Assembly (NCBI GenBank): GCA_902783885.1
Contig: CACZSQ010000038.1
Span: forward strand, 1 to 33,809
Direction of reading: 5' to 3'
DNA from: an uncultured Bacteroidales bacterium
Lineage (GTDB): Bacteria; Bacteroidota; Bacteroidia; Bacteroidales; Bacteroidaceae
DNA: 33,809 bases
Shown: one piece after another, positions 565-6,803 of the stretch
Layout of the letters: the number at the start of each line of letters is the position of its first letter
Numbering within the stretch: position 1 is the first letter of the stretch
The notes under the pieces: model-generated
Told to the model about the DNA's origin: nothing
Seen by the model: the letters and a program-made list of their open reading frames with translations, nothing else
Database searches by the model: none
Position numbers and translations under genes: made by a program

Positions 565-3443
<2,879 letters not shown>

Positions 3444-3500
3444 TTTTTTGCTTTAACGGGACCAAAATGTATGTAGAAACGAAAAAAAAGTGTGAAAAAG

Positions 3501-3531
3501 TTGGTGGTTTCACGAAAAGTGCGTTACTTTG
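3501..3531 (+). promoter_or_regulatory. Bacteroidetes-type promoter of the aromatic amino-acid operon
   Basis: TTACTTTG at 3524-3531 matches the Bacteroidetes -7 box TAnnTTTG with one difference. A TTGG at 3501-3504 lies 19 bp upstream, the expected place of the -33 TTTG box. Transcription would begin near 3537-3540, leaving about 18 nt before the leader-peptide ATG at 3557. This is a pattern match and no start site has been mapped. Confidence 0.55.
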
Positions 3532-3556
3532 TCACCGTTAAACAAATAAGAATGTC

Positions 3557-3613
3557 ATGAGACTTTACAACGCATACGCCTATTCCTATTATTACTTTAC
3601 CCAAACAAGGTGA
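3557..3613 (+). CDS. Tyr-rich attenuator leader peptide
   Basis: An 18-codon open frame from ATG 3557 to TGA 3611-3613 reads MRLYNAYAYSYYYFTQTR. Six of the 18 residues are Tyr, three of them consecutive (codons 11-13) and followed by Phe. Such density is not expected by chance and is the hallmark of a leader peptide whose translation senses charged tRNA-Tyr, with perhaps a minor input from tRNA-Phe. The stop codon overlaps the first bases of the antiterminator arm, as in classical attenuators. An A-rich stretch (aaataag) precedes the start, typical of this phylum, where Shine-Dalgarno sequences are weak. The frame is open, the attenuator role is inferred. Confidence 0.85.
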   Translation: MRLYNAYAYSYYYFTQTR

Positions 3614-3683
3614 AGCGGGAAGGCGCGTGTAACAGTTGAAACGTCACAAAGTCGAAACAGTAAATAATAACGAATCCCGCTTC
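3612..3683 (+). promoter_or_regulatory. antiterminator pairing of the aromatic operon attenuator
   Basis: GAAGCGGGA at 3612-3620 is perfectly complementary (9 bp) to TCCCGCTTC at 3675-3683. The second segment is also the left arm of the terminator, so the two structures exclude each other. The first arm overlaps the leader stop codon. A ribosome that finishes the leader covers it and permits termination, whereas a ribosome stalled at the Tyr codons (3587-3595) leaves it free. A weaker possible protector pairing exists between 3572-3580 and 3622-3630, 8 of 9 positions counting G-U pairs. Structures were found by eye, without energy calculation. Confidence 0.8.
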
Positions 3684-3702
3684 CCAATGGAGCGGGATTT
3701 TT
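3673..3702 (+). terminator. attenuator terminator
   Basis: AATCCCGCT (3673-3681) pairs with AGCGGGATT (3691-3699) over 9 bp, with a 9-base loop and a run of five T at 3698-3702. It is a good intrinsic terminator lying 18 bp before the first structural gene rather than after one, as expected for a regulatory terminator. It could also stop read-through from trpS. Confidence 0.85.
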
Positions 3703-3719
3703 CATTCAATATCAAAGCA

Positions 3720-4931
3720 ATGAGTAACACTACTTCTCAAACACAAACTTTCAAACCTGCCGACCGTCTCTCGAGCGTTCAGGAGTACTATTTCTCGCGG
3801 AAACTGAAGGAGGTGGCCAAGTTGAATGCTGAAGGTAAGAATATCATCAGTCTTGCCATCGGCAGCCCTGATATGCCACCCTCAGAACGTACGATTGAGG
3901 TGTTGTGCAAGGAAGCTCACAAGACGAATGGCCACGGCTATCAGCCCACCATAGGGACTCCTGAGCTCCGCACGGCGATGGCCCATTTCTATCAACGTTG
4001 GTATGGTGTCACACTTGACCCGCAGACAGAGATTCAGCCGCTCATCGGTTCCAAAGAGGGCATCCTTCATGTCACGTTGGCTTTTGTGAACCCTGGCGAG
4101 CAGGTCCTCGTTCCCAATCCTGGCTATCCCACTTATACAGCTCTTTCCCGTTTGCTGGGTGCTGAGGTGGTTAACTACAACCTAACAGAAGCCAATGGCT
4201 GGCAGCCCGATTTTGAGCAGTTGGAAGCCATGGATCTCAGCCGTGTGAAGCTGATGTGGACTAACTACCCTCATATGCCGACAGGTGCTCCAGCCCGTCG
4301 TGAGACCTACGAGCGTCTGGTGCAGTTCGCACGACAGCATGGTATTATCATAGTGAATGATAACCCGTATAGCTTTATATTAAATAAAGGTGAGCATCTC
4401 TCTATACTCCAGATTCCCGGAGCCAAGGATTGTTGTATAGAGTTCAATTCCATGTCCAAGAGCCATAACATGCCGGGATGGCGTGTTGGAATGCTTTCCA
4501 CCAATGCACAGTTCATACAATGGATCCTTAAGGTGAAAACCAATATCGATAGTGGCACATTCCGTGCTTTACAGTTGGCTGCAGCCGATGCGCTGACTAA
4601 CAGCACCGAGGAGTGGCATCGTGAAATGAATGTCAGAACATACGCAAACCGTCGTTCTATTGCAGAGGAGATTATGACAGCCCTTGGTTGTTCTTTCGAC
4701 CCCTTGCAAACTGGTATGTTTCTTTGGGGCCGCATTCCAGAAGAGATTGCCAATGTGGAGGACCTCACAGAGCGCGTGCTCCACGAAGCCCGTGTCTTCA
4801 TCACCCCAGGATTCATCTTCGGCTCTAATGGCAACCGTTATATCCGCATCTCACTCTGTGCCAAGGATGAGCAGATGCGGGAGGCACTTGATCGTGTGCG
4901 AACGATGTTAAACATTAAAAATACACATTAA
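3720..4931 (+). CDS. class I/II PLP-dependent aminotransferase, probably aromatic
   Basis: This 403-residue fold-type I aminotransferase has the PLP-binding Lys at about 247 in NSMSKSHNMPGWRVG. Upstream are the expected NPGYPTY and NDNPYSF segments, and RISLCA near the end carries the carboxylate-binding Arg. It sits first in an operon with DAHP synthase/chorismate mutase and prephenate dehydrogenase, so transamination of 4-hydroxyphenylpyruvate (and perhaps phenylpyruvate) is the likely job. The fold alone does not settle substrate. Start choice: an in-frame TTG at 3636 would extend the protein by 28 residues but runs through the terminator hairpin, so ATG 3720 (MSNTTSQTQ) is preferred. Thirteen bases separate it from the next gene. 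Confidence 0.9.
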   Translation: MSNTTSQTQTFKPADRLSSVQEYYFSRKLKEVAKLNAEGKNIISLAIGSPDMPPSERTIEVLCKEAHKTNGHGYQPTIGTPELRTAMAHFYQRWYGVTLDPQTEIQPLIGSKEGILHVTLAFVNPGEQVLVPNPGYPTYTALSRLLGAEVVNYNLTEANGWQPDFEQLEAMDLSRVKLMWTNYPHMPTGAPARRETYERLVQFARQHGIIIVNDNPYSFILNKGEHLSILQIPGAKDCCIEFNSMSKSHNMPGWRVGMLSTNAQFIQWILKVKTNIDSGTFRALQLAAADALTNSTEEWHREMNVRTYANRRSIAEEIMTALGCSFDPLQTGMFLWGRIPEEIANVEDLTERVLHEARVFITPGFIFGSNGNRYIRISLCAKDEQMREALDRVRTMLNIKNTH

Positions 4932-4944
4932 ACCAAACATAAAT

Positions 4945-6015
4945 ATGGAACTCGAATTGACTTTAGAAGGAATGAATTTAGGTATAGACGAGAGACGTCC
5001 TCTGGTAATAGCCGGTCCATGCTCGGCAGAGACTGAAGAACAAGTGATGGAAACCGCTCGTCAGTTGTCTCATAATGGAATAAAGATTTTCCGTGCAGGC
5101 GTTTGGAAACCTCGCACAAAACCTGGCGGTTTTGAAGGCAAGGGGGCAGAGGCCTTGCCCTGGCTGCAGCGTGTGAAGGCCGAGACAGGGATGCTTTTAG
5201 CTACTGAGGTTGCAACCCCCGAGCACGTGGAAACAGCCCTCAAGGCTGGCATTGATATCTTGTGGATCGGGGCCCGCACCACCGCCAACCCCTTCTCTGT
5301 GCAGGCTATTGCAGATGCGCTGAAGGGCACGGATGTGCCCGTGCTCGTCAAGAATCCTGTGAATCCCGATATCGAGCTGTGGACAGGCGCTCTCCTGCGT
5401 ATTAACAATGCTGGAATCCGTCGTCTCGGCGCCATCCATCGCGGTTTCTCCAGTGTAGATAGCAAGCTATACCGTAATCCACCGATGTGGCATATTCCTA
5501 TCGAGCTCAAGCGTCGTTTCCCTTCCTTGACCATCATCACAGACCCCAGTCACATGGGTGGACGTCGCGATCTTGTGGCCCCCCTTGCCCAGCAGGCGAT
5601 GGATCTCGGGATGGATGGGCTGATGATAGAGGCTCATTGCAACCCTGACTGCGCGTGGAGCGATGCCAACCAGCAAGTGTTGCCCGAGGTGCTCGATTTC
5701 ATCCTCGACCGTCTCGTTGTTCGCGAAAGCGTGGAGATCACAGAGAGCATCAGCCAGCTGCGCAAGCAGATTGATGAACTCGATAATCAGCTCATGGACC
5801 TTCTCACCAAGCGTATGCGTGTTAGCCGAGAGATTGCAGAATACAAGAAGCTACACAATATGACCGTTGTGCAGACGACTCGCTATAGTGAAATCCTCGA
5901 CAAGCGTGCTGCCCAGGGCGTTCTTTGCGGGATGAATCCTGATTTCGTCAAGAAGGTCTATGAGGCTATTCACAGCGAGAGTGTCAGGCAGCAGATTGAG
6001 TACATGAATAAATAA
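4945..6015 (+). CDS. bifunctional DAHP synthase (type I-beta) / chorismate mutase
   Basis: The first 265 or so residues form a type I-beta 3-deoxy-7-phosphoheptulonate synthase: AGPCSAE, KPRTKPGGFEGKG, WIGARTTANPFSVQ, LVKNPVNPD, DPSHMGGRR and the metal-ligand region EAHCNPDCAWSD. From about residue 270 an AroQ-type chorismate mutase follows (ISQLRKQIDELDNQLMDLLTKRMRV). It catalyses the first step of the shikimate pathway and the conversion of chorismate to prephenate. The mutase is C-terminal, as in the Porphyromonas gingivalis enzyme, which is known to be feedback-inhibited by prephenate. In Bacillus the mutase is N-terminal. Length (356 aa) fits the fusion. It is the second gene of the attenuated operon, 11 bp before the dehydrogenase gene. 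Confidence 0.95.
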   Translation: MELELTLEGMNLGIDERRPLVIAGPCSAETEEQVMETARQLSHNGIKIFRAGVWKPRTKPGGFEGKGAEALPWLQRVKAETGMLLATEVATPEHVETALKAGIDILWIGARTTANPFSVQAIADALKGTDVPVLVKNPVNPDIELWTGALLRINNAGIRRLGAIHRGFSSVDSKLYRNPPMWHIPIELKRRFPSLTIITDPSHMGGRRDLVAPLAQQAMDLGMDGLMIEAHCNPDCAWSDANQQVLPEVLDFILDRLVVRESVEITESISQLRKQIDELDNQLMDLLTKRMRVSREIAEYKKLHNMTVVQTTRYSEILDKRAAQGVLCGMNPDFVKKVYEAIHSESVRQQIEYMNK

Positions 6016-6026
6016 GGTCTTATATT

Positions 6027-6803
6027 ATGCGAATATTAATCTTAGGTGCCGGAAAGATGGGGTCGTTCTTTACGGACCTCCTCAGTTTCGACCACGAGGT
6101 GGCCGTTTATGACAATGACCCACAGCGTCTGCGCTTTCTCTACAATACACAGCGTTTCACCTCTTTGGACGAGGTCGATGACTTTCATCCAGAGTTTGTC
6201 ATCAATGCCGTTTCGCTGAAATACACGCTCACCGTGTTTGATGAGCTCTTGCCCCACATTGGCAAAGACTGCGTCCTCTCAGACATCAGCAGTGTCAAGA
6301 CGGGCTTCAAGGAGTATTACGAGAACACCGGTCACCGCTATGTCTCGTCGCACCCGATGTTCGGTCCCACTTTTGCCAACCTTGGGCAACTCAGCAGCGA
6401 GAATGCCATTCTCATCAATGAGGGTGACTACATGGGACGAATCTTCTTCCGTGATCTCTACACGCGCCTTGGTCTCAACCTTAAGGAAATCTCTTTCGCC
6501 GAACACGATGAGACTATGGCCTATTCGTTGAGCATCCCCTTCGTTTCGACCTTTGTCTTCTCAGCCGTGATGAAGCATCAGGATACTCCGGGAACCACCT
6601 TCAAGCGTCACATGACAATAGCCCGAGGAGTGCTTTCGGAGGACGACACATTGTTGCGCGAAATACTTTTCAATCCCCACACGAAGCCTAAGGTAGAGAG
6701 CATCCGCACGGAACTGAAGCAGCTCATCCAGATAATCGACGACCGCGATGAGGAAGCCATGACAGCTTACCTCACCCGCATCCGACAGAATATCAATGAA
6801 TGA
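6027..6803 (+). CDS. tyrA: prephenate dehydrogenase
   Basis: This 258-residue protein has an N-terminal Rossmann fold (LILGAGKMGSFFTDLL) followed by the helical dimerisation region of the TyrA family. It includes SDISSVKTGF, SSHPMFGPT and a His/Glu-rich segment ISFAEHDETMAYSLSIP that fits the prephenate-binding area. It oxidatively decarboxylates prephenate to 4-hydroxyphenylpyruvate, the committed step to tyrosine. The protein is short and shows no C-terminal ACT domain, so allosteric control through ACT seems absent. Transcriptional attenuation and control of the upstream synthase may carry the regulation (inference). The next gene starts 3 bp after the stop. Confidence 0.92.
   Translation: MRILILGAGKMGSFFTDLLSFDHEVAVYDNDPQRLRFLYNTQRFTSLDEVDDFHPEFVINAVSLKYTLTVFDELLPHIGKDCVLSDISSVKTGFKEYYENTGHRYVSSHPMFGPTFANLGQLSSENAILINEGDYMGRIFFRDLYTRLGLNLKEISFAEHDETMAYSLSIPFVSTFVFSAVMKHQDTPGTTFKRHMTIARGVLSEDDTLLREILFNPHTKPKVESIRTELKQLIQIIDDRDEEAMTAYLTRIRQNINE

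Follow-up and report, generated by a model that had tools for sequence, protein, structure and literature searches.

The pheA and trp leader attenuators of enterobacteria combine a short leader rich in codons for the operon's product with three competing helices and an intrinsic terminator, and older comparative work on attenuation reportedly named Bacteroidetes/Chlorobi. Published traces of such control in this part of the bacterial tree come from several sources. The Bacteroid-trp motif (RF01692) is listed for Bacteroidetes as a cis-regulatory RNA in a table of PMC2864571, a section of PMC9723704 presents strong clues to attenuation by leader peptides ahead of amino-acid operons in Flavobacterium psychrophilum, and a passage of PMC7366714 mentions sORFs of B. 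thetaiotaomicron that are reminiscent of attenuation leader peptides. Predicted uORFs encoding Phe and Tyr at genes of the shikimate/aromatic pathway appear in a figure legend of PMC6429828. Among the matches listed in our literature search, titles and abstract openings named no Phe/Tyr leader in Bacteroidota, a query combining tyrosine codons with leader peptides returned no match, and excerpts of PMC4833913, PMC6847099 and PMC12121999 hold nothing on an aminotransferase/DAHP synthase/tyrA operon. Ribosome-mediated attenuation is a known kind of mechanism, and the operon described here may already figure in a supplement.

The DNA analysed, referred to as the window, is a stretch of 33,809 nt from an uncultured Bacteroidales bacterium. 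On its forward strand, trpS (2349-3443) is followed by three genes named according to their Pfam domains: a class I/II aminotransferase (3720-4931; PF00155), a DAHP synthase fused to a chorismate mutase (4945-6015; PF00793, PF01817) and a tyrA-like prephenate dehydrogenase (6027-6803; PF02153). The NCBIfam matches shown for the three products all lie below the curated cut-offs, and the aromatic specificity of the aminotransferase is therefore taken from context; its closest relatives in named records are mostly from Prevotella, Prevotellaceae, Bacteroidaceae or Bacteroidales, many of them from ruminants. Judged from the sequence, the region between trpS and this operon very probably acts as a transcription attenuator of the ribosome-mediated kind, which controls all three genes in response to charged tRNA-Tyr and, to a minor extent, to Phe.

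Anatomy of the candidate attenuator

The anatomy described in the original prediction was confirmed to base level. What had been described as promoter-like boxes is a promoter of the Bacteroidetes type (3501-3531, plus strand), consisting of TTG at -33 (3501-3503), a 20-nt spacer and TTACTTTG at -7 (3524-3531); the latter box differs by one base from the consensus TAnnTTTG quoted in a passage of PMC9723704. A simple pattern scan, designed for sigma-70 promoters and for terminators, picked up neither of these elements of the attenuator, presumably because its promoter belongs to another type and its terminator stem extends into the T run.

Downstream of the promoter, the same strand encodes the leader peptide MRLYNAYAYSYYYFTQTR, followed by its stop (3557-3613). 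The predicted 18-codon frame is present, with six Tyr codons (at 3566, 3575, 3581, 3587, 3590 and 3593), the last three of which are consecutive and followed by a single Phe codon (3596). Antiterminator arm A, or segment 2 (GAAGCGGGA, 3612-3620), overlaps the leader stop codon and is, exactly as predicted, the perfect reverse complement of 3675-3683. This shared arm B, or segment 3, serves both as the partner of arm A and, again in line with the prediction, as the 5′ arm of an intrinsic terminator on the same strand (segments 3:4 with T run, 3672-3702), whose hairpin (3672-3700) has a folding energy of -17.7 kcal/mol and whose T run covers 3698-3702. The proposed likeness to the geometry of the classical trp/phe attenuators was supported and extended by a further helix that the prediction lacked: in helix 1:2, the protector (3595-3615, plus strand), CTTTACC (3595-3601) pairs with GGTGAAG (3609-3615), joining the last Tyr-Phe-Thr codons to the first part of arm A and completing the classical set of 1:2, 2:3 and 3:4.

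Several controls address how readily such features arise by chance. Among the window's ATG-initiated ORFs with 8-45 aa, 409 when both strands are counted, the leader is the sole one with at least five Tyr, and likewise the sole one with YYY or with six Y/F in 12 residues. Dinucleotide shuffles of 3444-3719 (plus strand) never produced an ORF with six Tyr (0/5000) and produced one with six Y/F in 12 residues four times (4/5000), while 9-nt exact complementarity to 3669-3685 was attained in 6 of 2000 shuffles of 3597-3640. The fold of 3538-3705 beats 200 out of 200 dinucleotide shuffles (z -4.28). A known Rfam leader or riboswitch was rejected: gathering scores were not attained by any family, either in the window or in 18 related loci.

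Proposed mechanism and ribosome geometry

When Tyr-tRNA is ample, the ribosome would reach the stop codon and cover arm A, allowing the terminator 3:4 to form; with no ribosome on the leader, helix 1:2 would hide arm A and the terminator would form again. When Tyr-tRNA is short, the ribosome would stall on the Tyr codons and open helix 1:2, leaving arm A free beyond its leading edge. Free arm A could then pair with arm B, which would block the terminator and let the operon be transcribed. For this scheme we infer translation of the leader, stalling, coupling between ribosome and RNA polymerase and a response to tyrosine.

The geometry of the leaders in the window and its relatives can be compared with this scheme. 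Measured from the last aromatic codon, arm A starts 8-15 nt downstream in 102 of the 103 leaders and 4 nt downstream in the other one. Relative to the end of the stop codon, its start varies in the same 103 from 46 nt upstream to 5 nt downstream, meaning that its spacing is held to the sense codons and not to the stop, as the edge of a stalled ribosome requires. In masked folding, the transcript was folded as far as arm B, with the ribosome-covered part masked according to the E. coli footprint; this gave a probability of A:B pairing in the window of 0.00 on free RNA, 0.96-0.97 with the ribosome stalled on the aromatic codons and 0.00 with the ribosome at the stop. The corresponding means of the 103 leaders are 0.54, 0.90-0.92 and 0.06; arm A is thus not hidden on free RNA in many relatives, and the antiterminator exceeds 0.5 with the ribosome at the stop in seven of the 103. 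These seven excepted at the stop, spacing and masked folding agree with the predicted logic whereby stalling frees the arm and finished translation masks it.

Codon use was counted in 99 of 106 distinct leaders with a hairpin. Among the upstream Tyr codons both TAT and TAC occur, and this synonymous variation suggests that the leader is translated; the last two aromatic codons are nearly invariant (TAC in 98 and TTT in 97 of the 99). Bacteroidota mRNAs naturally lack Shine-Dalgarno sequences, according to the abstract of PMC6847099. A separate observation concerns the codon before the last Tyr-Phe (3590-3592 in the window), which is TTT in 89 and TAT in nine of the 99 leaders and never TTC or TAC; helix 1:2 as drawn gives no explanation for this third-base T, fixed in 98 of 99.

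Compensatory change in the three helices

An arm complementary to the terminator was found, relative to shuffles, at p <= 0.05 in 102 and at p <= 0.01 in 80 of the 106 distinct leaders with a hairpin. Dropping L039 (wrong ORF picked) as well as L040 and L087 (arm or terminator mis-picked) left 103 usable sequences, 68 of which form the covariation alignment after near-duplicates were removed by eye (here and below, L-numbers denote loci and G-numbers genomes, G000 being the genome that holds the window).

Compensatory changes in both hairpins, named as a check in the original prediction, are found across relatives. In the terminator, they affect 9/9 pairs and 60 cells compared to 8.2 in shuffles, with 96.4% of cells paired; in the antiterminator A:B, taken as the extended helix, they affect 9/11 pairs and 30 cells compared to 9.8, with 80.8% of cells paired. 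For neither helix did any of 500 shuffles score as high, and sliding the partner lowers the paired cells to 38-53%. The outer pairs of the antiterminator are often broken (35/64 and 29/68 cells in the worst cases), and in its count of further pair types it does not exceed controls (81/500 shuffles reach it). As drawn, the predicted antiterminator and terminator are mutually exclusive, and both are conserved.

Helix 1:2 shows double changes in 4/7 pairs and in 31 cells, compared to 12.3 in shuffles (0/500 as high), and the share of paired cells drops in each of its slid versions. The two outermost pairs fail to form in 24 and 25 sequences. As a count of doubly changed pairs, four does not clearly exceed controls: 39/500 shuffles reach it and one slid version surpasses it. 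RNAalifold on the leader and arm region (54 sequences) lends weak support, returning just five inner pairs of the helix, one of them covarying. The parts of the putative attenuator, their conservation and their covariation can all be read from sequence.

Spread among relatives

Within the genus, the aminotransferase was matched at E <= 1e-90 in 130/139 genomes and pheA, the gene for prephenate dehydratase (PF00800; E <= 1e-60), in 129/139. The 129 rows of the leader table, in which G004, G015, G027 and G034 were not entered, correspond to 119 distinct aminotransferase loci, 115 of which, counting the window, have a Phe/Tyr-rich leader: 100 before pheA-first operons and 15 immediately before the aminotransferase. 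The leader frame and its Tyr codons, whose conservation had been proposed as a check, are kept in relatives, and so are Phe codons. Relatives typically place a mixed Phe/Tyr leader before pheA; the leader in the window is a Tyr-biased version of that arrangement. A Bacteroidetes-type TWnnTTTG lies within 75 nt upstream of 100/103 leaders (fraction in shuffles 0.07), and TTG is found 18-22 nt further upstream of that box in 93/103 (0.003).

Three of the four tabulated loci without a leader lie at contig ends (L106, L141 and L151), and the fourth belongs to G020, where leader and terminator stand ~1 kb upstream of pheA (L062, G020:C28); this distance may reflect an insertion between switch and operon. 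Outside the table, G004 (L070) has a pheA-first operon and a promoter-like TATACCTTTG near pheA, with no leader at the threshold used, possibly a natural loss. In G015, two contigs each carry a pheA-first operon (L073 and L074) and the two leaders differ, pointing to duplication or contamination.

A covariance model of the element, built partly from sequences on which it was run, has a single match at E <= 0.01 in G000 (E 4e-17). Across 39 genomes, it has 23 matches below E 1e-6, every one of them situated, by coordinates, ahead of the aminotransferase or pheA (~1 kb upstream in G020); at weaker scores, up to E 0.01, matches also occur in other places.

At the family level, the aminotransferase was matched in 136/166 and pheA in 135/166 genomes, and a leader was present in 19/20 regions fetched from 17 other genera (raw count), a detached pheA being the exception. 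At the class level, where pheA was matched in 59/197 genomes, raw counts excluding the window's own locus give a leader with at least five Tyr/Phe in twelve residues at 20/29 pheA loci, with none found at the other nine, and at 14/23 of those outside the order. An arm complementary to the terminator (p <= 0.05) accompanies 12/20 of these leaders, 9/14 outside the order; some of the misses were probably made by the script, which mistook a late Tyr/Phe past the arm for the final aromatic codon. At this distance, arm sequences may differ completely, e.g. GAGAACTTC with GGAGTTCTC in L202. Similar elements thus occur well beyond Prevotella, and a large group of gut, rumen and environmental bacteria includes many relatives with a similar switch.

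The aminotransferase itself varies at one site. After NPYSF, eight of 130 distinct copies (L033, L092, L093, L096, L119, L230, L231 and L236) have an in-frame insertion, giving a segment of 20-53 residues compared to 7-8 in 117 copies; the window's copy (3720-4928) has none. Most of the insertions are translated palindromic repeats, e.g. CCCTCCCTT...AAGGGAGGG, that of L119 being a QSN repeat. They appear to resemble mobile palindromic elements inside coding genes, of which the Rickettsia RPE are a known example.

Operon content and leader composition

In G000, pheA lies on another contig (L172, G000:C37), 6 nt behind a TrpB-like gene whose partial protein matches PRK12391 and TIGR01415. By eye, G356 and G361 also have a TrpB-like neighbour ahead of pheA, and the upstream gene in G019 differs; these differing neighbours suggest that detached pheA has probably moved more than once.

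In all 15 aminotransferase-first loci, pheA is elsewhere or was not found (G018, G319 and L118). Their leaders have a mean Phe share of 0.30; that of the pheA-first leaders (n = 100) is 0.42 (one-sided Mann-Whitney p = 2e-5, kinship ignored). Mixed leaders nevertheless precede the aminotransferase in L088, L094, L152 and G319 and, outside the genus, in G399. Conversely, three detached pheA have Phe-rich leaders of their own (G016, G334 and G287), with Phe shares of 0.86, 0.83 and 0.71 that exceed those of all 100 tabulated pheA-first leaders (maximum 0.625); outside the genus, one pheA-first leader is equally Phe-rich (L288, 9 Phe and 3 Tyr). The regions of ten other detached pheA, including that of G000, contain no leader at the thresholds used (G000, G019, G066, G272, G277, G306, G324, G356, G361 and G399).

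On an aminotransferase tree built by a quick method, with 24 of 110 inner branches starred, independent pairs with and against an association of Tyr bias with pheA loss averaged 2.7 vs 1.0 (3.0 vs 1.1 at another threshold); with seven starred pairs, this tree-aware test of Tyr specialisation is underpowered and not significant. Specialisation of leaders for Tyr or Phe after loss of pheA is thus suggestive but not significant after phylogenetic correction. We tentatively entertain, with slightly less than even confidence, a scenario for the whole class Bacteroidia in which one old dual Phe/Tyr attenuator has a codon mix that evolves with operon content: once pheA exits, the leader would duplicate or shift, so that pheA would come to have a Phe sensor in front of it and the remaining genes a Tyr sensor. 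If true, the codon mix following operon content would constitute a natural test of codon-level sensing, and a class-wide dual attenuator would imply close coupling of ribosome and polymerase in Bacteroidota.

Alternative readings

The hairpin could be a mere end terminator of trpS or another upstream gene, the leader ORF and the arm match being coincidental. This reading can draw on trpS ending at 3443 on the same strand and on the pattern scan that did not list the attenuator promoter, yet trpS and the hairpin are separated by a Bacteroidetes-type promoter, arms A and B covary, and the element stays with the aminotransferase or pheA even where another gene lies upstream (ORF 690-1838 in L108; detached pheA in L166 and L167). 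On these grounds it was rejected as extremely improbable. Hardly less improbable is a nascent-chain sensor, in which the leader peptide inside the exit tunnel would detect free tyrosine or phenylalanine and stalling would not depend on hungry codons, much like TnaC, whose nascent peptide senses tryptophan there. The C-terminal Y-F-Y-F motif, well conserved in most relatives, would suit such a sensor; the remainder of the peptide varies, however, Tyr/Phe make-up differs among leaders, and induction by the end product would have the wrong sign for a biosynthetic operon, and this reading, too, was rejected.

It is unlikely, to a lesser degree, that the window leader too responds mainly to phenylalanine, or to both amino acids equally. 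A Phe codon in the last aromatic position and the mixed leaders of most relatives favour this reading; six Tyr codons to a single Phe codon in the window, and the location of pheA on another contig of G000, speak against it. An attenuator responding chiefly to charged tRNA-Tyr remains the preferred reading.

Comparison with known systems

Bacteroid-trp RF01692, which we take to be a Trp leader, was matched in three of 61 genomes searched, twice above the cut-off and not in G000. For the window element no Rfam family reaches its cut-off, a difference from the enterobacterial leaders. The candidates in F. psychrophilum and B. thetaiotaomicron differ in that the relevant sections of PMC9723704 and PMC7366714, supplements aside, name no Phe/Tyr operon, and the uORF legend of PMC6429828 gives no organism, while passages of that paper on its five genomes make no mention of Bacteroidales.

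The present locus points to tyrosine as an amino acid sensed by attenuation and gives a handle on transcription-translation coupling in Bacteroidota. It would also extend the classical attenuator, with compensatory changes in three helices, to the principal Phe/Tyr operon of a group dominant in gut and rumen. Like the enterobacterial pheA and trp attenuators, it has a codon-rich leader, three competing helices, a stop codon beside segment 2 and an intrinsic terminator; unlike them, it uses Tyr codons (Phe and Tyr in relatives), belongs to a Phe/Tyr operon and has a Bacteroidetes-type promoter.
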